The notes below the pieces were generated by a model, which had not been told where the DNA came from, did not search any database, and worked only from the letters and a program-made list of their open reading frames with translations. Shown here in pieces: positions 3,961 to 33,110 of a DNA stretch of 63,177 bases. This DNA is from Candidatus Methanoperedens sp. (lineage in GTDB: Archaea; Halobacteriota; Methanosarcinia; Methanosarcinales; Methanoperedenaceae): contig VEPN01000017.1 of NCBI GenBank assembly GCA_012026835.1, positions 1 through 63,177 on the forward strand, written 5' to 3'. The position numbers were made by a program, and so were the translations under genes. How positions within the stretch are numbered: position 1 is the stretch's first letter; every line of letters starts with the position of its first letter.

Positions 3961-4964
3961 TCAACATAAACTTTTATGGGTTTTTAATAAAAAAATTCGA
4001 TAGCTTACGCTATTTCGATTTTCTGGCGGGTCTTCGATTAGTGTATTTCCCATTGTATTACTAAGATGCATCGTGATACGAAGTTTCATTATTCTTGTTG
4101 TTATTTTTTGGGTTCCTAACTCAATTCCATTCTCTCGGCAGTATATCATGCTGCAGAGCAACCAAAGCCAGAAAATCTTTTTTTACGCGGTATCCTGTTT
4201 CTATACCCCATCTTTTTCTATATAACTCTGCAATACAGTCTATATCTTTTTCATATTTAATTTCAAAATTTGTTGCAGTTCGAGTTATCTTTAATTATCT
4301 CCTTTATTCTATCATTTTTAGGAACAGGCATGATATACTTGAGTTTTAAACTCTCAAGAACTTTTATGATTTCAATTGAGAAAAAACCACGATTGAGAAG
4401 CACATATTTAATATGTACATATTTCATAGCATGTTCCAGTAACTCTTTCACTACACCCTCATTTTTCGAAAGTGGAGTAAGCGGAATTGCTTTCAGGGTG
4501 AACCTTTGATTCTTCTCGGCTATGTCTATGATTGCATATTTGTAACAATAAGAAGTCCCTCTATCGTGTTTACAGCCCATTATAAGCGGATTATTCACTT
4601 CCCCATAATAAGGGATTTCATGAATATCTATGGCTATTGCTGCATATTTTCCAAAAAGCCTTCTTTTTGCAGCCAGTTGGTGTGAGGAATTAACAATCCG
4701 ATCTAACTGGCACAAAAGCCTGAAATAACCCTGCTTTTCGATATGATAAAAAATAATGTCGGCTGATGAAATATCCTTCTTGCTTTTGACCTCTTTCAAC
4801 TCAACAACTGAACTCCCGGCGGAAGTGGTATTAACAGATGCCATCAGAATTATATTGAGAATATCTTCCTGATGGTATGTTGAATTTGATCTTATTTTTA
4901 AATCAATTTGTCTGTTCAGCGCTTTAAGCGCATCTTTATGTAAATGTTCGACTAAATAATTCAA
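3961..4964 (-). pseudogene. Frameshifted IS4-type (ISH3-like) DDE transposase
   Basis: The first frame (4964-4263) carries the N-terminal and catalytic core with AIDIHEIPYYGEVNNPLIMG (a DDE aspartate region) and GCKHDRGTSYCYKYAI. Near 4280 the frame changes. The continuation reads FEIKYEKDIDCIAELYRKRW then GIETGYRVKKDF, the Y-R-E-K signature of IS4-type enzymes, and soon shifts again near 4140 into a frame ending at 3961. At least two frameshifts make it inactive. The region is more AT-rich than its flanks. Clear terminal inverted repeats were not found, so element ends are unresolved. Confidence 0.75.
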
Positions 4965-5173
4965 ATGTCTATCCTTTCTGGTTTTATGTGATTAACAAAA
5001 TATTCCAGTAAAGGACAGACTTAAATTTATCTTTCACTTGCGGAAGTACTGTTATAGTGCTTTATGACTGAATTCAGAGTAACATTGTCCCAAAAACTTT
5101 ACATAAACGATGCAGTAATGAATCCTGGCAAAAGTTTTTTATAATTTCATCCTAAACTTTTTATAATATCTTT

Positions 5174-6406
5174 TTACTCCTTCAACCTGCCCGCCACTTC
5201 CTCCACAGTAAGCAATTCCTGCCCCCCGGTCTTCATATCCTTGAGCGCAACTTTTCCTGCGTCAAGCTCGTTCTTTCCCACTACCACAACATGGCTTGCA
5301 CCTATGGTGTTGGCATAGGATATCTGGTCTTTAAATTTCCTTCCCATCACATCGATATATGTAACTACATGCTTCCTTAGCCTTTTTGCGATAACGATGG
5401 CCTCCTTTCGTGTATCTTCGAACGAGACCACAACTATGCTCACTGGAGCCGCGGGCTTCACTTCGCATATCTCCATTATCCTATCAAACCCGATGGCATA
5501 CCCGGTGGAAGGTGTATCCTCACCCCCGAACAACTGGGCAAGGCGGTAAGAGCCTCCCCCGCATACCTGGTTCTGCGCACCAAGGCCGTCGCAGTATATC
5601 TCAAAGACCATGCCCGTATAATAGTCAAGACCCCTTGCTATCCCGAGATCGACCTGGTATTCAAGGCCGTAAACATCAAGGAGCGATAGCAGGGCATCGA
5701 ATTGTGATATAGCCCCGATATCCCCGACAAGCTCCCGTGCCTCATGTACGGCATTTATGCCCCTTAGCCCAATCAGGCGGAATAACTTCCCCCGCATATC
5801 ATCCGGCGCATTTATTTCATCAAGGAAATCCTCAAGCCCCTTCTCATCCTTTTTATCCACAAGACGCATTATTTTGCCCTGGTGCTCAGGCAGGATGTCC
5901 TTCAGGAGGGAGCGCACGATACCCAGATGTCCCACATGCAAGTCTCCTGTAACACCCGCCATTTTTAACATCTCCACAGCCATTGCGATGACCTCGGCTT
6001 CTGCCTCGGGGCGGATGCTTCCTATTATCTCGACGCCGAACTGGAAAAATTCCCTGAACCGCCCTTTCTGCGGACGCTCGTACCTGAAACAGTTGTCAAA
6101 ATAAAAGAATTTTAGGGGTTTAGGCGACTTCTGTAATTCTTCAACATACATCCTTACCACAGGTGCCGTGAGTTCAGGGCGCAGTGCGATCTCGCGGTCT
6201 CCCTTGTCCTTGAAATTATATATCTCACCAAGAATTCCTTCACCTGACTTCAGCGTGAAAAGCTCTATATGCTCAAAGGTCGGGGTCTTTATTTCCCCGT
6301 AACCCCAATGCACTGCAACCTCGCGCAGCCTGCTCTCTATACATCTTCTTTTTGCCATCTCCGGTGGGAGAAAATCACGCGTGCCTCGGGGTTTTGGGAT
6401 TTCCAT
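5174..6406 (-). CDS. hisS: Histidine-tRNA ligase
   Basis: This is a class II aminoacyl-tRNA synthetase that charges tRNA-His with histidine using ATP in the cytosol. It starts [20 protein letters not shown]. Motif 2 is visible as [18 protein letters not shown], and the histidine-specific loop as [16 protein letters not shown]. Motif 3 is [12 protein letters not shown]. The C-terminal part (about residues 325-410) is the anticodon-binding domain. The length of 410 is normal. The start has GGATC a few bases upstream and a TATA-like TTTATTAATG at about 6438-6452. It is divergent from the lipoprotein gene at 6552. Confidence 0.95.
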
Positions 6407-14292: not shown

Positions 14293-14643
14293 TTTTTCGT
14301 GAAAAATGGGAAAATAATAATTCCTGCGATAATTTCAAAAACGCAATTTCTTTTTCAGTGGGATATAGACTCCTGCTGCATTTTTCAGAATGTACAGGAT
14401 ATAAATTTCATGTCGGTGTTCATTTATGAGTGGGTAGAATAATCCAGAATGATTGCATCTGAATCTATAAGAGGCAGAGCAAATTACGAAAGAGGCTGGC
14501 TTAAAAAATTAGCCTTACTGCACATCGATGCAAATATATATAGGATATTAGAAATAAGAGAATATACGCAGGAGACTGTAAGAAAAATATTTAATAACGC
14601 AGTCACAGCTTATGTTAATAGAAATATGACGATGGGGATAACT
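14293..14643. other. 351-base region before the glycan operon
   Basis: A T-rich stem (TTTTTC, GT, GAAAAA) just after rpl11 looks like its terminator. TATA-like boxes occur at about 14397-14408, 14528-14542 and 14583-14597. An open frame from 14449 runs in frame into the aminotransferase, but its 65 extra residues match nothing typical of that family and probably represent leader. No RNA gene is visible. Confidence 0.45.
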
Positions 14644-15828
14644 ATGACTGAGAAAAAGCGAGTTCTGTCAAGAGCGGCATACAGGATTGAAGGACAGCCG
14701 ATGTTTAAAGTTTTGGAAAAGGTCCAGAAGTTAGAACAACAGGGAGAACATATAATCCATTTTGAAATTGGAGACCCGGATTTTAAAACTCCAGATCATA
14801 TAATAGAGGCGGCATACTCTTCTATGAAGAATGGAGAGACCCATTACACTAATTCGATGGGATTATTTGATTTCAGGGAAGTTGTAAGTGAGGCCACAGC
14901 CTTTTCAAGAGGCTTCTCACCTTCTATAGACCAGGTGCTTGTTACTCCGGGTGCGAACATAATAATATATCTTGCTGTTAAGTGCCTGGTAAACCCAGGC
15001 GAAGAAGTAATAATACCTGATCCCGGCTTTCCTACATATTATTCAGTATTGAAACTTTGTGGAGTTTCGGCTGTCAGAGTTCCCTTAAGAGAAGAAAATA
15101 AATTCAGAATGAACCCTGATGATATAAAAAACGCCATTACCCCAAAAACAAGACTTATTATAATTAATTCACCAAATAATCCAACAGGGTCGGTTATGAC
15201 CTCTGAAGAGATGAATGAAATTTATAGAATTGCAGAAAAGAATGGCATTTATTTATTAAGTGATGAAATATATTCCCGAATGATTTATGAAGAGGATGCA
15301 AAATTCCACAGCCCCTCTAACGGCGATTTCTGTAAGAAACTGACCATCGTAGCGAATGGTTTTAGTAAAGCGTTTGCTATGACGGGCTGGAGATTGGGTG
15401 TTGCTATAGGTCCTGAAGATGTTATTGAGAAGATGGGTTTACTGGTACAAACCCTGGTCTCATGTACTCCTCCGTTTATCCAGCGCGCAGGAATAGCTGC
15501 AATAAAAGGAGACCAGGCAGAAATTCGTAACATGATGGAAATATACAAGAAAAGAAGAGATGTTATTGTTGATGGTTTGAACAGTATTCCGGGTATTAGC
15601 TGTTTAAGAAGTGGCGGGGCTTTTTACGTATTTCCGAATATAACAAAGACAGGGATGTCCAGCGAGGAATTTGCGAATTATATTCTTGATGAAGCTAAGG
15701 TTGCTATTTTACCTGGCACCAATTTTGGAAATTATGGAGAGGGGTATGTAAGGTTAACCTACGCCACTGGCGTAGAAAATATTAAAATAGGTATAGAAAG
15801 GATACGTAATGCCGTAGAAAAATTATAG
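14644..15828 (+). CDS. Class I PLP-dependent aminotransferase, aspartate type
   Basis: A fold-type I enzyme that moves an amino group between an amino acid and a 2-oxo acid. Family landmarks are the N-terminal IEGQPMFKVLEKVQKLEQQG, HFEIGDPDFKTP, INSPNNPTGSVMT, LSDEIYSRMIYE and the PLP-lysine loop NGFSKAFAMTGWRLG. The ATG at 14644, with GGGGATA upstream, fits the family start; an upstream in-frame ATG at 14449 would add 65 unsupported residues. It is the first gene of the glycan operon, 18 bases before the ThDP enzyme, so it may supply an amino sugar or amino acid substituent. The exact substrate is unknown. Confidence 0.85.
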   Translation: MTEKKRVLSRAAYRIEGQPMFKVLEKVQKLEQQGEHIIHFEIGDPDFKTPDHIIEAAYSSMKNGETHYTNSMGLFDFREVVSEATAFSRGFSPSIDQVLVTPGANIIIYLAVKCLVNPGEEVIIPDPGFPTYYSVLKLCGVSAVRVPLREENKFRMNPDDIKNAITPKTRLIIINSPNNPTGSVMTSEEMNEIYRIAEKNGIYLLSDEIYSRMIYEEDAKFHSPSNGDFCKKLTIVANGFSKAFAMTGWRLGVAIGPEDVIEKMGLLVQTLVSCTPPFIQRAGIAAIKGDQAEIRNMMEIYKKRRDVIVDGLNSIPGISCLRSGGAFYVFPNITKTGMSSEEFANYILDEAKVAILPGTNFGNYGEGYVRLTYATGVENIKIGIERIRNAVEKL

Positions 15829-15846
15829 TCTTATATAGGAGAAGGA

Positions 15847-17649
15847 TTGATGATGCGAGTTGCAGATTTCATTGCAGAGTTCATATACGATATTGGGGTC
15901 AAACATGTTTTTATGCTTACAGGTGGCGGAATAATGCATCTGACCGACGGAGTTGCATGCAATAAGGATCTACAGGTTGTATGCTGCCACCATGAGCAGG
16001 CATCCTCTATGGCATTGGAAGCTTATTCCAGAATGACCGGTAATTATGGTGTCGGATATTTTACTACCGGACCGGGGGCAACTAACGCTATAACAGGACT
16101 TGCAGGCGCGTGGCTTGATTCTGTGCCCTGTTTATTTATTTCAGGCCAGGTAAAAAGGAAAGAAGCTGTATATAATGCAAAGATACCGGGATTGAGACAG
16201 TTCGGGGTTCAGGAGATTAACATACTACCTATAGTTGAGTCCATTACAAAATATTCAGCAATAGTAAATAATCCTGAAGATATAAGATATCATCTTGAAA
16301 AAGCATTATATTTATCAAAGGAAGGAAGACCCGGGCCTTCGTGGCTGGATATTCCACTTGATGTCCAGGGAGCTATTATTGAACCGGATAAATTAAGAGG
16401 ATTTACTCCACCAGAGGATATGAAGAAAATACCGGAATCCCAGATTAAACAGGTTGAGCAATATATCAAATCTGCATCCAGGCCTGTAATCCTGGCAGGG
16501 TATGGCGTCAGGATATCAGGAGCTATCAATGATCTATTAAAGCTTGTTGAAAAATATAATACTCCTGTTATTACTACTTATTTAGGGGCTGATGTAATAG
16601 ATAGCGAGCATCCAAACTATGTAGGCCGGATAGGCATCAAAGGAGACAGAGCTGGAAATTTAGCCATGCAGAACTCTGATTTGTTGATAGTAATAGGTAG
16701 CAGCCTGCCTGTTGCAGAGATTGGGTATGAATATCCACAATTCGCAAGGGAAGCCAGGGTTGTAATAGTGGATATTGATATCTCATCTCATAAGAAGAAT
16801 ACAATAAAGATTGATTTATTAATAGAGGGTGATGCAAAAGAATTTCTAAACAAATTATCCCGATTATTAGACAAACAACAGATTAACTCTGGAAATAAAT
16901 GGCTGGACACTTGTATATCGTGGAGAAATAAATATCCTGTATGCTTGCCGGAATATGAAAAACTAAAAGATAAAATAAATATTTATTACTTTATCGATAG
17001 ATTATCCAGGAAACTGAACACTGATGATGTAGTAGTTACTGATGCAGGTTCAGCGTTCTATGCCGGGTCGCAGTGTGTAAAAATCAAACAGGGTATGAGG
17101 TATATCACATCCGGGGGCTTTGCGACAATGGGTTACAGTCTGCCTGCAAGTATAGGAATCAGCGCTGCCCTTAATAAGAAAAGGGTAATGTGTATTACCG
17201 GGGATGGTTCATTGCAGCAAAATATCCAGGAGCTCCAAACAGTTGTTCATTATGGTTTTCCCTTGAAGATTTTCATTTTAAACAATGATGGATATCTCTC
17301 AATAAGATTCACTCAGGAGAAATATTTTAATGGAAGGTTCATCGGGGAAAGTTCGATTTCAGGAGTATCATTTCCTGACTCTAAGAAAATTGCAGATGCC
17401 TATGGTATAAAGTTCGTGCGGGTCAGCAATAATAGCCAGTTGGATAAAGCTCTGGATGATGTCCTGGAATTTGACGGCCCGGTCATTTGTGATATCATGA
17501 CGCCAAGGGACCAATTGATCATACCAACTGTTGCCTCGGAAAAAAAGGATGATGGCACAATGGTATCAAAACCCCTTGAAGATATGTATCCTTTCTTGGA
17601 ACGTGATGAGTTCAGGAAAAATATGATTGTGAAAGCACTCAGTGAGTGA
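15847..17649 (+). CDS. ThDP-dependent enzyme of the acetolactate synthase family (possible YerE-like)
   Basis: The 600-residue protein has the three-domain plan of pyruvate-oxidase/acetolactate-synthase enzymes. An N-terminal pyrimidine-binding domain holds the catalytic Glu in CCHHEQASSMALEAYSRMTG. A central domain spans about 195-335, and a C-terminal diphosphate-binding domain carries ITGDGSLQQNIQELQTVVHY and NNDGYLSI. Branched-chain amino acid synthesis would need a small subunit and ilvC, which are absent. The position beside an RfbH-like dehydratase and an SDR suggests a YerE-type role: adding a two-carbon unit from pyruvate to a 3,6-dideoxy-4-ketosugar. This is inference from context; the fold assignment itself is firm. 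Confidence 0.8.
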   Translation: MMMRVADFIAEFIYDIGVKHVFMLTGGGIMHLTDGVACNKDLQVVCCHHEQASSMALEAYSRMTGNYGVGYFTTGPGATNAITGLAGAWLDSVPCLFISGQVKRKEAVYNAKIPGLRQFGVQEINILPIVESITKYSAIVNNPEDIRYHLEKALYLSKEGRPGPSWLDIPLDVQGAIIEPDKLRGFTPPEDMKKIPESQIKQVEQYIKSASRPVILAGYGVRISGAINDLLKLVEKYNTPVITTYLGADVIDSEHPNYVGRIGIKGDRAGNLAMQNSDLLIVIGSSLPVAEIGYEYPQFAREARVVIVDIDISSHKKNTIKIDLLIEGDAKEFLNKLSRLLDKQQINSGNKWLDTCISWRNKYPVCLPEYEKLKDKINIYYFIDRLSRKLNTDDVVVTDAGSAFYAGSQCVKIKQGMRYITSGGFATMGYSLPASIGISAALNKKRVMCITGDGSLQQNIQELQTVVHYGFPLKIFILNNDGYLSIRFTQEKYFNGRFIGESSISGVSFPDSKKIADAYGIKFVRVSNNSQLDKALDDVLEFDGPVICDIMTPRDQLIIPTVASEKKDDGTMVSKPLEDMYPFLERDEFRKNMIVKALSE

Positions 17650-18599
17650 TTAAAATTTCTGAAAGATTATTAGTCACCGGGGCTGCTGGTTTTGTAGGGT
17701 CAAATCTTACCAGAAGATTGATCAAAGAAGGATATGAAGTCCATATTATCACCCGGGAAACATCTGACTATTGGAGAATAAAAGATATGCTACCGTGCCT
17801 GAAAAACCATGTGGCGGACTTACTTGATGAAGACGGGTTAAAAACCGTAATTCAACAGATAAATCCGGATGTGATATTTCATCTGGCAAATGCCGGTGTT
17901 TATGGTGGCGTTCATCTTCCTGAAAAGAAAGTTGTTGAGACAAATTTTATCGGGACAATGAACCTGATTAGCGCAAGCAACGATATTGATTACAAGTGCT
18001 TTATCAATACCGGTAGTTCCGCAGAGTACGGCCCCAAAAAATTTCCTATGAAAGAAACTGATTTATGCGAGCCGATTAATGTCTATGGAGTCTCAAAATG
18101 CGCAGCGACGCTGTACGGAAATTATATCGCAAGGATAAAAGACAAACCCATAATTGGATTGCGACTTTTCTCTCCATTTGGACCCTATGATGATAAAAGC
18201 AGGTTAATGACTTATGCTATAACGAACGCACTTTGGAATAAACCATTATCTCTGGGAAATCCCAATGCAGTACGAGATTATATATATACTGAAGATGTGC
18301 TGGATATTTATTTACAAAGCATAAATATAGCCTCTGAATTAAAAGGAGAAGTATTCAATCTGGGTAGTGGTTCTCAAGCAACAATTTCATATATTGTCAA
18401 TAAAATCATTGAAATAACAGGCTCAAAGAGCGAAATAAAGTGGAACTCATTTCCCGGAAGGGCGCATGATACAGAAAAATGGGAGGCAGATGTCGAAAAA
18501 ATAAGTAAATGTTTTAACTGGCACCCTAAATATCATATAGATGATGGAATCAGGCAAACGATTTCATGGTTCGAAAATAATTTGCGTTTATACAAGTAG
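17646..18599 (+). CDS. NAD(P)-dependent epimerase/dehydratase (extended SDR)
   Basis: A Rossmann start VTGAAGFVGSNLTRRLI, the active-site pair NTGSSAEYG and the YGVSKCAA Tyr-x-x-x-Lys motif identify an extended short-chain dehydrogenase acting on a nucleotide sugar. Binding-site strands GLRLFSPFGPYD and RDYIYTEDVLDIY are also typical. The GTG start overlaps the preceding stop (GTGA), so the gene is translationally coupled to the ThDP enzyme. In this setting it may reduce or epimerise the ketosugar (a role like YerF, RfbJ or RfbS), but the specific reaction cannot be read from sequence. Confidence 0.85.
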   Translation: MIKISERLLVTGAAGFVGSNLTRRLIKEGYEVHIITRETSDYWRIKDMLPCLKNHVADLLDEDGLKTVIQQINPDVIFHLANAGVYGGVHLPEKKVVETNFIGTMNLISASNDIDYKCFINTGSSAEYGPKKFPMKETDLCEPINVYGVSKCAATLYGNYIARIKDKPIIGLRLFSPFGPYDDKSRLMTYAITNALWNKPLSLGNPNAVRDYIYTEDVLDIYLQSINIASELKGEVFNLGSGSQATISYIVNKIIEITGSKSEIKWNSFPGRAHDTEKWEADVEKISKCFNWHPKYHIDDGIRQTISWFENNLRLYK

Positions 18600-18609
18600 T
18601 CAGTAATAT

Positions 18610-19944
18610 ATGAAAACCAAAGAAGAACTCAAAAAGGAAATTTTCAGCAAGGTCAAAGAGTACTTTCTATTAGCCCATCGGCAGAAACAATTCATACCCG
18701 GCAAGTCAAAGGTAAATTACGCCGGAAGAGTGTACGATGAAAAAGAATTAATAAGCCTTGTCGATTCAGCCCTTGATTTCTGGCTCACGGCCGGCAGGTT
18801 CGCAAGACAGTTCGAGAAAGAATTTGCAGAATTTTTGGGCGTAAAACACTGCCTGTTGACAAATTCAGGCTCCTCTGCCAACCTGCTGGCTTTATCGGCT
18901 TTGACCTCCCCGACCCTGGGAGAAAAACAGTTAAAACCTGGGGACGAAGTAATTACTGTAGCTGCCGGGTTCCCTACTACGGTCAATCCGATAATACAGA
19001 ATAACCTGATTCCAGTGTTCATAGATGTAAACCTTGGAACATATAATATTCAATGTGATAAGATTGAAGATGCGATTTCAGACAGGACAAAAGCCATTTT
19101 TATTGCACATACGATGGGCAATCCTTTCAATCTCGATGCTGTGATGGAAATCGTAAAAAAACACGACCTCTGGCTAATAGAGGATAACTGCGATGCCCTG
19201 GGGTCAAAGTACAAGGGCAAATATACAGGGACTTTCGGCCATATTGCTACTTTCAGTTTTTACCCTCCTCATCATGCGACCATGGGTGAAGGCGGCGCCC
19301 TGGTTACAAATGATACGAATTTAAAAAGGCTCATTGAATCTTTCAGGGACTGGGGAAGAGATTGCTGGTGCGAGCCGGGATGCGATAACTCGTGTGGAAA
19401 AAGGTTTGACTGGCAGTTGGGTGAACTGCCATATGGTTATGATCACAAATACATATACTCGCATATAGGATATAATTTAAAGGTTACTGATATGCAGGCG
19501 GCAGTAGGGGTAGAACAGTTGAAAAAGCTGCCTTCATTCATTGAGGCGAGAAAGAGAAATTTTAGACTTCTGTACGATGGGTTGAAAAAATACGATAAAT
19601 ATTTTATTCTGCCTGAGATTGAGAAGGGAGCAGAACCAAGCTGGTTTGGGTTTTTACTGACAGTCCGTGAAAACGCAGGGTTCAGTAAAATTGATATAGT
19701 AAAATATCTTGAAGAACATAAAATAGCCACGCGAATGCTTTTTGCAGGGAATATCACCCGGCATCCAAGTTTTACAGGCGTAAATTATCGTACTTATGGC
19801 GATCTTATGAATACGGATTATATAATGAATGATACCTTCTGGGTTGGTGTTTATCCGGGAATGACCGGGGAAATTATCAGATACATTTTGTATTGTTTTG
19901 AAGAATTTATTTCATTAAAACTTAATGATGGTAAATCAGCATGA
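18610..19944 (+). CDS. NDP-4-keto-6-deoxyhexose 3-dehydratase, E1/RfbH type
   Basis: This is a DegT-fold enzyme in which His replaces the PLP-binding Lys: [14 protein letters not shown], with His221 at the Lys position. Four cysteines at residues 194, 252, 254 and 262 keep exactly the C-X57-C-X-C-X7-C spacing of the [2Fe-2S] site of CDP-6-deoxy-glucoseen dehydrase E1. The stretch [20 protein letters not shown] is the RfbH signature. It removes the C3 hydroxyl of CDP-4-keto-6-deoxyglucose using PMP and electrons from a reductase. No E3 reductase, rfbF or rfbG is in the window, so these must be elsewhere. Confidence 0.92.
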
Positions 19945-21002
19945 CTCTCCTGAGTATATGTATTCCAACATATAACAGACCTGAACAAGTAAAGAATCTT
20001 TACAAGACATTTTTATCCCGTGCCCTGCAGGAATACGGCAGCCAGATTGATATAATCGTTTGTGATAATTCTGACGACGAAAAAGCCTGTTTGAATCAGT
20101 CAATTCTTGGGTCTAAAGTACATTACCATAAAAATAAGGCAAATATTGGTTTTTATGGCAACATAATACAATGTACAAAACTGGCTGATGGCCAATTCAT
20201 CTGGATTATTTCTGATGATGATATTATTTTGTGGGATGGTTTCCAAAGCTTAATGGATTATCTGTCCCATGCAAGCAATGAATGTATTGATTGTATTATG
20301 CTACCGTACCGTAATGATGATTTTAATAAAAATGAAATATTAAATGATCAGCATGAATGGGGCGTAGAAAAAGATACAAATCTTTTAACACTTTTGAATG
20401 CAGTTAGATATTCATATAATCATGCCCCTTTTTGTCTTTTTTCGACTGCGGTTATCCGGCTGGATAAAAAAAGATTGGATTGGGCGGCTAACGAATTCCG
20501 TGACAATGTTATGATACAGATACCGCTTTTCCTGTGCATGCTTAAACCAGAGTCAAAATTACGGTTTCTGGATGAGATTATCATACAATACGCAGCGGAC
20601 TATCATATACAAGTGCAACTCCTGGCTTTCTACAAAGACATGAAGGACATATTGCTATTCATAAGAAAAGAATACGGGGTTGATGTAAAAGAGGCACTGG
20701 ACCTATTATACAATAAAGTGCTCTCCTTACTGTTATCCCACCGTGTTGGAATCTGCAATTACAAAAATGCAGATACCCAGCGCTGGCCCATATTGGCCGG
20801 ACTTCCCCAGCATCTGCATATTAAAACGATTATTTTAGCTTTATTAGTCGCTATGCCCAGGATTTTAATGAAGATACCATATCTGTTTTATTTAAGTATT
20901 CATTATGCATATGCAAGCAGGGAAATTTCGATTAAAAAAGTCATTACCAATTACAATACATTGTATCATTCTATCAGTATTAAGAACAAAGAATACAGAT
21001 GA
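19941..21002 (+). CDS. Family 2 glycosyltransferase (copy 1)
   Basis: The GT-A fold opens [19 protein letters not shown] and the nucleotide-sugar site is [14 protein letters not shown] (about residues 92-105). The C-terminal third is helical and partly hydrophobic (IIILALL-like stretch near 295-320), suggesting peripheral membrane contact. It transfers a sugar to a growing surface glycan; donor and acceptor are unknown. It overlaps the dehydratase gene by ATGA. It is closely related to the next gene, so the pair arose by tandem duplication. Confidence 0.85.
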
Positions 21003-21031
21003 AAGAAAAGACTTTAAGGAAATAAACGGCC

Positions 21032-22111
21032 ATGTGCATTGAGAATAATATGAAACTTTTGAGCATCTGTATCCCTACTTATAACCGGCCTGATAAGCTG
21101 AAAGAAATCTATCAAAATTTTCTGGTCTTTGCCCTTCATGAATATGGTGATCAGGTAGAGGTAGTGGTCCGTGACAATTCGGATGAAAAAAATGCCCGTA
21201 TAAACCGTTCTATACTTGAAGGCACCCAGGTACGTTATTACAAGAATGAGACAAACGTATATTTCTGCGGAAACCAGGTAAGATTAATTGGCGACTCTAA
21301 AGGACAATTCATATGGATCGTTTCAGACGATGATTTAATCCTTATGGATGGATTCAAACAGCTAATGAGTTGTCTGCCCACTGCCAGCAAAGAATGTATA
21401 GATTGCCTTATCCTTCCAATCAATTATCGCAATAATATGGGAGAACTTATAGAACATAAATATGGCATGAACAGCAAGGGTGATACTGATATTGAAAAAT
21501 ATCTGAAAACTCTGCCTGTGGTCCCTTTTGGATATTTTGCTGAAGCAGTTATCCGGGTAAATAAGAGCCGGCTGGATTGGGTGGCAAAAGAATACCAGGG
21601 TAATGAAATAATTAATATACCACTTTTCCTTACAATGCTTAAACCCGAGTCAAAAATGCGATTTTTGGATAAAGCCGTAATTGAATACCATGAGACATAT
21701 TATGTCAGGGGTTTTGATATTTGCAAATATTATTACTGGCACCGTGAAGTGACCTCGTTTTTAGAGAAATATTATAATGTTGATAGCGCGATGCTGAACG
21801 ATAATTCATACAAGGAGTTTTTGTTAATGGTATTGGTTCACAGGGTTGGGCTTCGGATATACCCCAATATAAAAGAAGTACGACGATTTCTGGTTACCAA
21901 AATCCGTCATAATTTATGTTTGAAAAGTATCGCTCTGGCAACTATCATAGTTTTACCCGGAAGTTTAGTGAGACACCCTTACTTATTTTATTTAAGCGTT
22001 CAGCGTGCACATGGCTGTGGAGGTTTCTCTATTAAGGAAGTCGTTTCAAGGTACAGTTTACTAAATAACTTCATTCGCACGAAAGAAGATGAAAGAAGGT
22101 CGGTCAATTGA
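21032..22111 (+). CDS. Family 2 glycosyltransferase (copy 2)
   Basis: This 359-residue paralogue of the preceding gene aligns along its whole length: [55 protein letters not shown] and a C-terminal LFYLSVQRAHGCGGFSIKE. The catalytic DDD is kept in both copies, so both are probably active with different acceptors. The first residues MCIENN may be extra; MKLLSICIP is an alternative start at 21050. Confidence 0.85.
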   Translation: MCIENNMKLLSICIPTYNRPDKLKEIYQNFLVFALHEYGDQVEVVVRDNSDEKNARINRSILEGTQVRYYKNETNVYFCGNQVRLIGDSKGQFIWIVSDDDLILMDGFKQLMSCLPTASKECIDCLILPINYRNNMGELIEHKYGMNSKGDTDIEKYLKTLPVVPFGYFAEAVIRVNKSRLDWVAKEYQGNEIINIPLFLTMLKPESKMRFLDKAVIEYHETYYVRGFDICKYYYWHREVTSFLEKYYNVDSAMLNDNSYKEFLLMVLVHRVGLRIYPNIKEVRRFLVTKIRHNLCLKSIALATIIVLPGSLVRHPYLFYLSVQRAHGCGGFSIKEVVSRYSLLNNFIRTKEDERRSVN

Positions 22112-23028
22112 ACTTTGTACGCATTATCCTGTCTGGCGACCTGAGTATATATACCAAATTAGAAATCCTGAAACAAAAAGCTATGGCGTTTACTATAAAA
22201 TTACTGAATATCTTTAAAAAACCACAAGCCGTAGAAAGCCCTATAAAACAACCGGGTTCTGGGATTGGTACTTTCAATTATAAAGGATTTATTTTCTATT
22301 ACAACAACCATGGAATCAGAGCCGACCTTTTGAAATCCGGTAACTGGTCATATGACCAGGAAATCGCTTCTTCAATAATTGCAGAACTTACTAAATCATC
22401 TGCACCGGTATTCCTGGACATAGGTGCACATGCGGGTTTTATTACATTAAATATTCTTGAGAAAGTACCATCTGCGCAGGTATTCGCTTTCGAACCAGGG
22501 ATACTTCAAAGTTCATTATTTGAAAAAACGATCAAGGCGAATAACCTGAACGATAAAGTTATTCTCTATAGAGAAGCCCTGGGACGTGAAACAGGGATAA
22601 CATCATTTATCTGTCAGGAATCTCCGGATGTTGACTGGTCAATGAACAATGGATTTCTGGATACGGGCAGGGGAAAAGGCAAGCAAAAGCGCGTTGAAGT
22701 TAAAGTTCAGACTGTTGATAAATGGTGGAAGGAAGCAGGGCAACCAAAAGTCAGTGTTGTAAAAATGGATACTGAAGGTGCAGAACTCTGGATATTGCAG
22801 GGCGGCACTGAATTCTTATCAGCCTGCAAGCCAGCGATCTTTTTAGAAATCAATCCTTTGAATCTTCATGTTTATCCTTATGGGGCCAGGGATATTCTGG
22901 TATGGCTTGATAATCACAATTATTGCGTGGAAACCCTTGGAGGAGTCCGGGTCGTACCGGATAATCTTAAGCGGATTTTAAAAGATAATGAATTCTTTGT
23001 CGCAAGACCAAATGCAGGGCATGAATAA
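22108..23028 (+). CDS. FkbM-family SAM-dependent methyltransferase
   Basis: A class I methyltransferase core begins near residue 90 with FLDIGAHAGFITLNIL (SAM-binding glycine loop), followed by VFAFEPG and the FkbM signature VVKMDTEGAELWILQGG. Family members methylate hydroxyl groups on sugars and other metabolites, so O-methylation of the surface glycan is the likely job. The gene overlaps the second GT2 gene by ATGA and touches the next gene, giving tight coupling. Confidence 0.85.
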   Translation: MNFVRIILSGDLSIYTKLEILKQKAMAFTIKLLNIFKKPQAVESPIKQPGSGIGTFNYKGFIFYYNNHGIRADLLKSGNWSYDQEIASSIIAELTKSSAPVFLDIGAHAGFITLNILEKVPSAQVFAFEPGILQSSLFEKTIKANNLNDKVILYREALGRETGITSFICQESPDVDWSMNNGFLDTGRGKGKQKRVEVKVQTVDKWWKEAGQPKVSVVKMDTEGAELWILQGGTEFLSACKPAIFLEINPLNLHVYPYGARDILVWLDNHNYCVETLGGVRVVPDNLKRILKDNEFFVARPNAGHE

Positions 23029-23978
23029 TGAATGAAGAAAAATCCGTTAAGGCAGCGATCGTATATCTTGCAAGGTCAAGACCAGGAGACATAGCAGAGC
23101 TGAAACGCAGCTTATCACTTCTGGATGTTAACTTCAACGATAAATTCAATTACCCTGTTGTTATTTTTCATGAAGACATTAATGAAAAACTGATGGGAAA
23201 AATCCGTGAATCTACACGGTCACAAATTCAATTTGAAAAAGTTAGTTTTAAGATCCCTGATTTTTTAAACAAAGAGGAAGTCCCGGAATTAATCTATCTG
23301 GACGGGGACTGTTTTTCAATGGGATACCGCCATATGTGCCGGTTTTTCAGCGGAATTATTTTCCATCATCCTGCACTGAAAGATTACGATTATTACTGGC
23401 GGCTTGATACGGATTCTTTTTTACTTGATAAAATAGATTATGATGTGTTCCAGTTCATGCATGAGAGAAATTTTAAATATGGTTATATCGGTATATTTAA
23501 AGATGAGCCTGGCGTGACCCGGGATTTGTGGGATACAACAAAAAAATATATAGAAGATAATAACCTCAAGCCGCAATTCCTGCAAAAATTCATGTCTGAT
23601 GGGATATGGGATAGAAGCTATTATTATACAAATTTTGAAATATCAAGACTTGATTTCTGGCGCTCTGAAGAGTTTATGAATTATTTCGAGTATTTAGACC
23701 GGGCCGGAGGGATTTATAAATATAGATGGGGAGATGCTGTTATTCACCTGCTGGCTGTCTCAATATTCCTTCCTGAAAGTAATGTCCACAGGTTCAGCGA
23801 TATTGCCTACCAGCACCAGGGATTTTTTAACAATTATTCACCGAGCCCGGATATTTTTAGCAGGTTAAAAAACCTGAAAGAAATTATCAAGAAACCTGTT
23901 GTGAGAACATCGAACAGCCTCAAGAGAAAATCAGGCTTATACAGGAGATTTATAAAATTCGTCAAAAGGGAATCATAG
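23028..23978 (+). CDS. GT15-like (Kre2/Mnt1-type) mannosyltransferase
   Basis: The sequence YRHMCRFFSGIIFHHPALKD, YYWRLDTDSFLLDKI and YDVFQFMHERNFKYGYIG follows the signature order of fungal alpha-1,2-mannosyltransferases of family GT15, including the MCRF(F/Y)SG and YYWR motifs. No N-terminal membrane anchor is present, unlike the fungal type II proteins. It ends the glycan operon. Transfer of mannose to a surface glycan or glycolipid is the family expectation; the donor is unproven. GT15 is mostly eukaryotic, so a transfer history is plausible. Confidence 0.75.
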   Translation: MNEEKSVKAAIVYLARSRPGDIAELKRSLSLLDVNFNDKFNYPVVIFHEDINEKLMGKIRESTRSQIQFEKVSFKIPDFLNKEEVPELIYLDGDCFSMGYRHMCRFFSGIIFHHPALKDYDYYWRLDTDSFLLDKIDYDVFQFMHERNFKYGYIGIFKDEPGVTRDLWDTTKKYIEDNNLKPQFLQKFMSDGIWDRSYYYTNFEISRLDFWRSEEFMNYFEYLDRAGGIYKYRWGDAVIHLLAVSIFLPESNVHRFSDIAYQHQGFFNNYSPSPDIFSRLKNLKEIIKKPVVRTSNSLKRKSGLYRRFIKFVKRES

Positions 23979-31167: not shown

Positions 31168-31413
31168 CTACCACGACACCACTTTATCGTATTCAAACAA
31201 CATCTCAACTATCCTGTCGTATCCCACGCATTCATGCTTCCTGACGCCTCTTGCTTCCGCATCGGCGGCGCATGCATACGCCTTCAATCCGGGATCTGCA
31301 TACACTGCATCCTGCATCAGGAGTATCGCAACATCGTGCTCTCTGTCCTGGGCTTTTGCTATCTCTATCGGGGTCGTATCGTTGGGATTCCGGATAATAT
31401 GAAGTATTTTCAT
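31168..31413 (-). CDS. DsrH/TusB-like sulfur relay subunit
   Basis: The 81-residue protein begins MKILHIIRNPNDTTPIEIAK, has the VAILLMQDAVYA strand and ends in VVSW, as TusB/DsrH proteins do. In bacteria TusBCD accepts sulfur from TusA and passes it on for tRNA wobble-uridine thiolation; DsrEFH does the same in sulfur oxidisers. It is the last gene of a five-gene run, two bases after the DsrF-like gene. Confidence 0.75.
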   Translation of the reverse strand: MKILHIIRNPNDTTPIEIAKAQDREHDVAILLMQDAVYADPGLKAYACAADAEARGVRKHECVGYDRIVEMLFEYDKVVSW

Positions 31414-31415
31414 AA

Positions 31416-31766
31416 TTAAAATGGTATAACAATATCTGAATCTGTTATTGTTTTCACGATATCTTCGCGATTTACGGTCTTTACATCAGGGAGGAGGGTG
31501 TTTATTCCTCTCTTTTTAAGGGAAAGCCCGTCAGCAATCAGGGAGCATTTCAGCATAGAGAGCGCTTCAAATTCTTTTTTAGGGGGTTGGAAACCGATAA
31601 TTTCCGGCCTGGCAGGGGTGGCGGTATAGACTCCGTCATCCATGAAAATGACCGTTACCTTATCCTCCCGCAGCGTCAGTCCCACACTCATCCGCAGGGC
31701 TTCTGAGTTCCGTCTTGTGTTCAGGGGAAGGTTCCTTACAACTACTGTTATTTTCTTCATGTTCAC
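31416..31766 (-). CDS. DsrF/TusC-like sulfur relay subunit
   Basis: A DsrE/F-fold protein: KKITVVVRNLPLNTRRNSEA, a second strand VTVIFMDDGVYT and a conserved LKCSLIADG with a single Cys, then DIVIPF at the end. It pairs structurally with the DsrE- and DsrH-like neighbours to form a hexameric sulfur carrier in known systems. The ATG overlaps the upstream stop by ATGA. Confidence 0.75.
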   Translation of the reverse strand: MNMKKITVVVRNLPLNTRRNSEALRMSVGLTLREDKVTVIFMDDGVYTATPARPEIIGFQPPKKEFEALSMLKCSLIADGLSLKKRGINTLLPDVKTVNREDIVKTITDSDIVIPF

Positions 31767-32065
31767 CCGAAAGAAATGAACCTGTCAACATCGGATGCGA
31801 TGCAGGCATGGTCGTACTGGCTCCCGAACAGTATTCCCTCAACCCTGTTCACTTTTCTCTGCTCGACATTGAGCGCGCAAACAGCTATGTTTACACCTTT
31901 GTCCACCAGTTCCGCGAATTCTTTTTTATTCACGTTATACACGCCGTCGTACATCAGGAAAATGGATACATCGTGACCCGCCTTCCGCGCTGCTGTGCTT
32001 ATCGCAATAACTGTATTGGTATTCTCGTTCTCAGGGCTTGTGGTCAGGAGAATCCCGAGTTTCAT
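31763..32065 (-). CDS. DsrE/TusD-like sulfur relay subunit
   Basis: A DsrE-fold protein starting MKLGILLTTSPENENTNTVI with VSIFLMYDGVYNV and VNIAVCALNVEQRKV. The Cys in the last motif aligns with the sulfur-accepting Cys of TusD/DsrE, so it is likely the catalytic subunit of the set. It overlaps the TusA gene by ATGA. Confidence 0.78.
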   Translation of the reverse strand: MKLGILLTTSPENENTNTVIAISTAARKAGHDVSIFLMYDGVYNVNKKEFAELVDKGVNIAVCALNVEQRKVNRVEGILFGSQYDHACIASDVDRFISFG

Positions 32066-32286
32066 GCCTTGCGTATCCTCACTTTCCAGAGATGATCGCC
32101 ATTCTGTTCAATCCCCATTATCTTATGCCCTTCGTTTTTCAGGCTGCGTGGCACGTTCTCCACCGCAGGGGCATGGTCGAATGTAACGACGAGTTCTTCG
32201 CCGCTTTCAATCTCTTCAAGTTTTAGTTTCGTTTTTACAAATGTATAAGGGCATACCTCGCCCTTCAGGTCAAGTTCGATTGCCAT
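32062..32286 (-). CDS. tusA: TusA-family sulfur carrier
   Basis: The hallmark CPYT motif occurs in LDLKGEVCPYTFVKTKLKLE, where the Cys carries persulfide sulfur. A C-terminal EQNGDHLWKVRIRKA strand completes the small two-layer fold. I prefer the ATG at 32286, with GGTGA just upstream. The ATG at 32307 would add seven residues and overlap the preceding gene by 16 bases. It lies between the E1-like adenylyltransferase and the DsrE-like subunit. Confidence 0.85.
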   Translation of the reverse strand: MAIELDLKGEVCPYTFVKTKLKLEEIESGEELVVTFDHAPAVENVPRSLKNEGHKIMGIEQNGDHLWKVRIRKA

Positions 32287-32291
32287 TTTTT

Positions 32292-33110
32292 TCACCAGAT
32301 CCTGCATGATTCTCCATATATTTCTTCCTGTATTGATGTTATTTTGGGTTCTTCACCGCATACAGGGCAGTTCTTGTTCCACCGCATTTTGATCTCATCA
32401 AAGCTCATGTTGAGCGCATCATAGTAAATAAGCCTCCCCACGAGCAGTTCACCTATTCCGAGAAGGTATTTTACAACTTCTGTCGCCTGGATGACACCGA
32501 TTATCCCTGGCAATACACCGAGAACGCCAGCTTCCTGGCAGCTTGGGACCATTCCGGGTGGAGGCGCATGCTCAAAAAGACACCTGTAGCACGGCCCTTT
32601 GTGCGGTATTATGGTTGTCACCTGGCCTTCGAACCTGTAGATGCTGCCATGCGAGAGTGGTTTGCCTGTTATGACGCACGCGTCGTTGACGAGGTATCGC
32701 GTTGCGAAGTTATCAGAGCCATCAACCACGATGTCATATTCCTTAAAAATATCGATGGCATTGCCTGCGTTCAATCGCTCGATGTACGTTTTTACTTCTA
32801 TATCGGGATTGAGATTATTAACGAATTGCTTTGCGGATTCTGCTTTATGAATCCCCACTTTTCCCCCGTGTATGACCTGCCTCTGGAGGTTGCTCAGGTC
32901 AACAGTATCATCATCCATGATGCCAAGCGTTCCCACGCCAGCAGCAGCAAGGTATTCTATTATGGGCGCTCCAAGCCCGCCTGCGCCAATGCATAACACT
33001 TTTGAGTCGAGGAGTTTCTTCTGTCCTTTCCCCCCCACCTCGGGCAGTATGATGTGGCGCGAGTATCTTTTTATTTGTTCTTCGCTGAATCCGCCTAACA
33101 TTCTTATCAC
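32292..33110 (-). CDS. MoeB/ThiF/HesA-family E1-like adenylyltransferase
   Basis: The protein adenylates the C-terminal glycine of a ubiquitin-like sulfur carrier. SRHIILPEVGGKGQKKLLDS, the nucleotide site CIGAGGLGAPIIEYLAAAGV, the DLSNLQRQV arginine loop, and zinc-binding CYRC and CPVCGE pairs are all present. The catalytic Cys region is GVLGVLPGIIGVIQATEV, lacking an obvious Cys, as in MoeB-like members. The target could be MoaD, ThiS or an archaeal SAMP, none of which is here. It heads the sulfur-relay operon. Confidence 0.88.
   Translation of the reverse strand: MIRMLGGFSEEQIKRYSRHIILPEVGGKGQKKLLDSKVLCIGAGGLGAPIIEYLAAAGVGTLGIMDDDTVDLSNLQRQVIHGGKVGIHKAESAKQFVNNLNPDIEVKTYIERLNAGNAIDIFKEYDIVVDGSDNFATRYLVNDACVITGKPLSHGSIYRFEGQVTTIIPHKGPCYRCLFEHAPPPGMVPSCQEAGVLGVLPGIIGVIQATEVVKYLLGIGELLVGRLIYYDALNMSFDEIKMRWNKNCPVCGEEPKITSIQEEIYGESCRIW

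Follow-up and report, generated by a model that had tools for sequence, protein, structure and literature searches.

The window analysed here, a stretch of 63,177 nucleotides of Candidatus Methanoperedens DNA, contains an operon of eight co-directional genes (14449–23978, forward strand) separated from one another by −4 to +29 bases, the last of which encodes a glycosyltransferase of family GT15. The G+C content of the operon is 36–41%, against 45–48% in both flanks. The same contig carries archaeal genes for Spt5, L11 and NFACT, named from their sequences and, for NFACT, also by Pfam. The island begins just after the genes for Spt5 and ribosomal protein L11 (13298–14449); the L1-L10-L12 genes, which often follow L11 in archaea, are absent there.

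The operon and its predicted sugar

All eight genes lie on the plus strand. The operon starts with a class I aminotransferase gene (14449–15828; PF00155, 232 bits), which is 88% identical in locus L183; in a related genome, G003, such a gene likewise stands before a YerE-like gene. Next is a YerE/JanthE-like thiamine-diphosphate carboligase (15847–17649; PF02775, PF00205, PF02776), which scores below the acetolactate synthase equivalog cut-offs and has its best PDB match at 461 bits with 8rph, which we take to be JanthE; the next match reaches 277 bits. An SDR of the epimerase/dehydratase/reductase type (17646–18599; PF01370, 158 bits; no NCBIfam equivalog over cut-off) is a candidate ketoreductase of the branched sugar. 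It is followed by an RfbH/DdhC-type CDP-4-keto-6-deoxyglucose 3-dehydrase (E1) (18610–19944; NF011936, 750 bits with a cut-off of 423; 3bcx and 3bb8, about 590 bits), which has SFYPPHH where the PLP lysine motif usually stands. Two GT2 glycosyltransferases (19941–21002 and 21032–22111; PF00535, 47.9 and 39.8 bits, both over cut-off) and an FkbM-family methyltransferase (22108–23028; PF05050, 59 bits; TIGR01444, 87 bits, over cut-off) precede the GT15 gene (23028–23978), the ATG of which overlaps the FkbM stop codon. The preliminary description, made from the DNA alone, had placed a GT15 enzyme in an archaeal glycan operon, and this gene content agrees with it.

Together, RfbH and the YerE/JanthE-like ligase suggest a pathway that adds a unit derived from a 2-keto acid to C4 of CDP-3,6-dideoxy-4-ketoglucose, the chemistry described for YerE (PMC12247030). 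Elsewhere in the genome there is a glucose-1-phosphate cytidylyltransferase (347 bits, cut-off 300), adjoined by a CDP-glucose 4,6-dehydratase-like SDR (201 bits, under the equivalog cut-off of 278). These two enzymes would take the CDP-glucose steps of DdhA and DdhB, after which RfbH would act as dehydrase; the YerE-like ligase would then add its unit from a 2-keto acid, and reduction by the SDR would follow. O-antigen operons of the yersiniose/erwiniose type (DdhC/RfbH with YerE, ErwE or JanthE) likewise combine such a dehydrase with a YerE-like ligase acting on CDP-3,6-dideoxy-4-ketoglucose; the present operon differs from them in its archaeal setting, in the presence of GT15 and in that other loci of the genome encode the CDP-glucose steps. 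On the basis of these genes, we infer that the operon is a kit for a C4-branched 3,6-dideoxysugar, and the identity of the final sugar is likewise predicted.

The GT15 protein and its active site

The product of 23028–23978 (316 aa) is a genuine GT15 enzyme, and a rare one, from a branch of the family that is soluble and prokaryotic/viral. The three motifs from which membership in the Kre2/Mnt1 family had been proposed are present in the order given, YRHMCRFFSG at residues 100–109, YYWRLDTDSF at 122–131 and YDVF at 138–141, and the membership is borne out by profile, sequence and fold comparison. The Pfam profile PF01793 matches at 192 bits (gathering score 25; E 2e-56) over profile positions 52–324 of 325, and the sole phmmer matches in the PDB are Kre2p, ScKtr4 and AfKtr4/CmsA (E 1e-35 to 4e-44). 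When an AlphaFold model (pLDDT 85.9) was compared with the PDB by Foldseek, the top 11 matches were all Kre2/Ktr4 (GT15) chains (E 1e-22 to 1e-27, TM about 0.75), with the next family some 14 orders of magnitude behind (E 4e-8); thus, the best match is not to an unrelated transferase family. In a viral library the best fold match is the giant-virus protein A0A5J6VLB3 (Megaviridae environmental sample; TM 0.66, 28% identity), in which, unlike in the archaeal protein, the GT15-like region is part of a protein of 536 aa. A search for GT15 in 14 control genomes gave no match.

With the fungal Kre2-Mnt1-Ktr enzymes (Kre2p, 1s4n; Ktr4p, 5a07; CmsA/AfKtr4, 7boo) the archaeal protein shares the fold and a near full-length profile match, the YRHMCR, NFEI, RWGD and Y-x-H motifs, the Mn-ligand positions and an equivalent of Glu329. 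Unlike fungal Kre2/Mnt1, it has neither a type II signal anchor nor a stem, and it also lacks the conserved C-terminal disulfides, Cys95 and Cys104 being its only cysteines. Its cytosolic appearance, also noted previously, holds: there is no hydrophobic N-terminal segment, the profile match begins at residue 4, and the most hydrophobic stretch of 19 residues (mean hydropathy 1.16) falls at 235–253, within the domain. The C-terminal tail (residues 270–316), mostly of low confidence in the model, contains 14 Lys/Arg against 3 Asp/Glu.

We mapped the active site onto the Ktr4p-GDP-Mn contacts of PMC4546622, where E262 and H411 are the Mn ligands. D127 and H263 occupy these positions, with Glu replaced by Asp at D127, and their equivalents are invariant in 81 of 81 phage sequences compared. 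Y100, M103 and R16 correspond to Ktr4 Y235, M238 and R142, and E204 and D236 to Kre2 E329 and D361. The residue check that had been proposed thus finds the metal ligands and E204 kept, and D127/D129 (the DxD motif), H263, Y100, M103, E204 and D236 are all conserved. Glu stands at the Kre2 Glu329 position, that of the nucleophile candidate of the family, in all three archaeal proteins.

Unlike the fungal GT15 proteins, the archaeal enzyme is the product of a prokaryotic operon, and it has DTD in place of EPD/EPN and several altered donor contacts. The guanine contacts N172/D173 of Ktr4 are replaced by H48/E49, although all archaeal and phage sequences spanning the Asp173 position have an acidic residue there, Asp or Glu; the stacking Trp204 is replaced by Phe74; and Tyr229, a β-phosphate contact, is lost. 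Because of the changes at Asn172, Trp204 and Tyr229, another nucleotide sugar is possible as donor. The genome encodes ManC/GMP_PMI (458 bits, cut-off 373), which indicates a supply of GDP-mannose, as well as a GDP-mannose 4,6-dehydratase (624 bits, cut-off 415). As these genes lie outside the operon and are common in prokaryotes, judging by control genomes, they lend weak support to any assignment of the donor. Taken together, residues and genome content favour GDP-mannose as the probable donor.

Relatives in archaea and tailed phages

In archaea, GT15 is rare. PF01793 turned up in two genomes both among the 34 of the family and among the 238 of the class, and in one of 393 genomes sampled from the phylum. 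Of 87 genomes from the phylum of a DPANN genome, one has it. The third archaeal copy is partial and lies at a contig end of Arabian11_MAG_21, a DPANN MAG (PMC10936187); it passes the PF01793 cut-off on re-scanning. The second belongs to a sibling genome of the same genus (Ca. Methanoperedens group), where a cassette of the order SDR-RfbH-GT2-GT2-FkbM-GT15 lies on a different contig. Its genes are 62–89% identical to those of the window, and the GT15 protein is 81% identical. The thiamine-diphosphate enzyme of the sibling is only 35–38% identical, with neighbours mostly at 70–89% (L002:16-1059 and 4481-5983), and a B12-binding radical SAM gene is inserted between its GT2 genes (L002). In G003 the aminotransferase, YerE-like and RfbH genes are 85–88% identical and GT15 is absent. 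The cassette at another place in the sibling and the operon without GT15 show that the island is modular, and that GT15 is an optional late piece of it. The NFACT gene next to the island is present in 29 of 31 genomes of the genus (71–90% identity), and a shared genomic site of the island was rejected on the grounds that the NFACT flank of the sibling genome is without it.

In IMG/VR, a single-sequence scan found 39 loci and an alignment-guided scan 143 GT15-related stretches, of which we kept the best 80. Among these best 80 of 143 are the nearest non-archaeal relatives by identity, uncultured tailed phages with up to 43%, compared with 31–36% for fungi. Four phage proteins were re-scanned and all exceed the PF01793 cut-off, and the phage contigs tested carry a phage DNA polymerase, a UvsX-like recombinase and a DnaB-like helicase. 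Archaeal, clade-A and clade-B proteins used as tblastn queries found no GT15 in isolate phages or plasmids, and PHROGs has no family matching these proteins. A six-pattern scan of genome contigs matched only two other archaea and no bacterial GT15, the reach of these patterns being limited to 39 viral loci against 143 for the alignment-guided scan, with clade B missed. Since most viral loci escaped the patterns, bacterial GT15 genes may still exist.

In a tree of 70 sequences, which is unrooted and contains only three fungal sequences, three lineages meet: the fungi, whose branch measures 1.9 changes per site (support 100/100), the three archaeal proteins (86/80) and clade B of the phages (100/99), with the clade-A phages set apart by a well-supported branch. 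A first tree had joined archaea and fungi against the clade-A phages, but this grouping gave way to an unresolved three-way split when clade B was added. The clade-B proteins (for example L050 and L053) resemble the archaeal enzyme in being soluble, in their DxD motif and in 36–43% identity. An RfbH homologue lies nearby in 10 of 22 clade-B loci and in 0 of 53 clade-A loci, as raw counts uncorrected for how often RfbH occurs across IMG/VR, and the phage RfbH proteins reach at best about 42% identity to their archaeal counterpart. In contrast to the archaeal operon, clade-B genes share their contigs with UvsX and phage DNA polymerase, are in some cases present as tandem copies, and occur without BLAST homologues of the archaeal GT2s.

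A parallel is phage contig L053, where RfbH, SDR, YerE-like, FkbM and GT15 genes lie within 6.6 kb in an order that differs from the archaeal one: RfbH, SDR, YerE-like ligase, PanB homologue, GT15 and FkbM-domain protein. Its RfbH scores 477 bits (cut-off 423), and its YerE-like protein is 50.6% identical to that of the window over 597 aa. The gene set common to this contig and the archaeal operon, in which the YerE-like ligase and FkbM also take part, is the strongest evidence that GT15 functionally belongs with the branched-sugar pathway, and it suggests that cassettes for branched sugars move between the genomes of viruses and of cells. The gene between the YerE-like ligase and GT15 encodes a homologue of PanB (ketopantoate hydroxymethyltransferase; L053:5030-5968, over cut-off), which might make a 2-keto acid donor for branching.

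Phage GT15 genes show further variation. Several contigs carry two copies, adjacent or close and often of different subclades (L056/L057, L059, L060, L065, L067, L069), suggesting diversification of linkage or acceptor. In L033:4344-5762, an FkbM-type methyltransferase appears, from the sequence, to be fused N-terminally to GT15, echoing the FkbM-GT15 pair of the window. In clade A (for example L029–L031, L037, L039–L041), the Kre2 Glu329 position is Phe in seven sequences and Asp in four, a possible sign of changed chemistry or of an inactive enzyme; the wider group thus tolerates loss of that residue.

Role, origin and significance

We think it probable, with some reserve, that the archaeal GT15 is a soluble, GDP-mannose-dependent retaining enzyme that acts on a cytoplasmic lipid-linked glycan, within a mobile surface-glycan operon making a C4-branched 3,6-dideoxysugar. 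As one of several glycosyltransferases of the operon, it would transfer mannose from GDP-mannose to the growing lipid-linked oligosaccharide in the cytoplasm, with retention of configuration; D127 and H263 would bind the Mn2+, and the basic C-terminal tail may dock the enzyme at the membrane. Its donor, acceptor, linkage and membrane docking, like the identity of the final sugar, are as we infer them here. It is possible, if unlikely, that the donor is another one, either the operon's own CDP-activated branched sugar or a GDP-6-deoxysugar, so that GT15 adds the special sugar itself. This would fit the association of GT15 with RfbH in both archaea and clade-B phages, the altered base contacts, and the homologues of GDP-mannose 4,6-dehydratase in the examined GT15 flanks of eight phage loci, in one of which (L005) the gene adjoins GT15. 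Against it, the enzyme retains its acidic contact to guanine N1/N2, which argues against CDP; G003 has the same aminotransferase/YerE/RfbH operon, showing that the sugar can be handled without GT15; and two GT2 enzymes are available for adding it. The confinement of GT15 to a few genomes could also be taken to mean that the protein is an inactive or non-catalytic relic, but this is very improbable, given that the sibling protein retains all active-site residues and that the operon is intact, with overlapping start and stop codons. A binning or assembly artefact is scarcely credible: although the genome is split into 116 contigs and its relatives are MAGs, the gene is contiguous with those for Spt5, L11 and NFACT, and an independent sibling MAG has the same cassette in another place. 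The archaeal host assumed earlier is thereby supported.

The term "fungal-type", used for this gene in the preliminary description, names the fold correctly and misleads as to its likely source, as the archaeal proteins do not group within the three fungal sequences available and are nearer to phages, by identity and by path length (1.8 from the window GT15 to clade B, 3.3 to fungi). Acquisition from a fungus or other eukaryote, with adaptation to the cytoplasm through loss of anchor and disulfides, is improbable. All characterised and PDB members of GT15 are fungal, the literature found treats PF01793/GT15 as eukaryotic, and archaea and fungi as one clade give a p-AU of 0.48. On the other hand, archaea with clade B are equally not rejected (0.68), the fungi form a clade of their own on a long branch, and archaeal and phage proteins share the DxD, MGYRHMCR and the acidic contact in forms that fungi lack. 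The phylogeny that had been called for rejects placement of the archaea with Kre2 inside the three fungal sequences (p-AU 2.6e-13). As the tree is unrooted and has only three fungal sequences, we claim no direction of transfer. Tentatively, GT15 could be in essence a prokaryotic/viral family. One soluble branch of it would move, together with RfbH/YerE-type branched-sugar cassettes, between archaea, tailed phages and the hosts of these phages, and the Golgi-anchored fungal Kre2/Mnt1 enzymes would descend from such a source, not the other way round.

We found no prokaryotic or phage GT15 in the open-licence literature; in matches naming Bifidobacterium, GT15 is a strain name. In soil metagenomes GT15 has been taken as a eukaryote signal (PMC11237643), a use that is weakened by its presence in Methanoperedens, a DPANN archaeon and well over 100 phage contig stretches. 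Soluble, disulfide-free GT15 enzymes are now on offer for biochemistry, and the origin of fungal mannan synthesis becomes testable. More broadly, the findings point to a glycan kit for branched dideoxysugars that is common to phage genomes and archaeal surface-glycan operons. Elsewhere in the window, a minus-strand cluster at 31168–33110 appears, from its sequence, to encode several small DsrE-like proteins together with a TusA-like protein and a ThiF/MoeB-like enzyme, perhaps a sulfur-relay operon.
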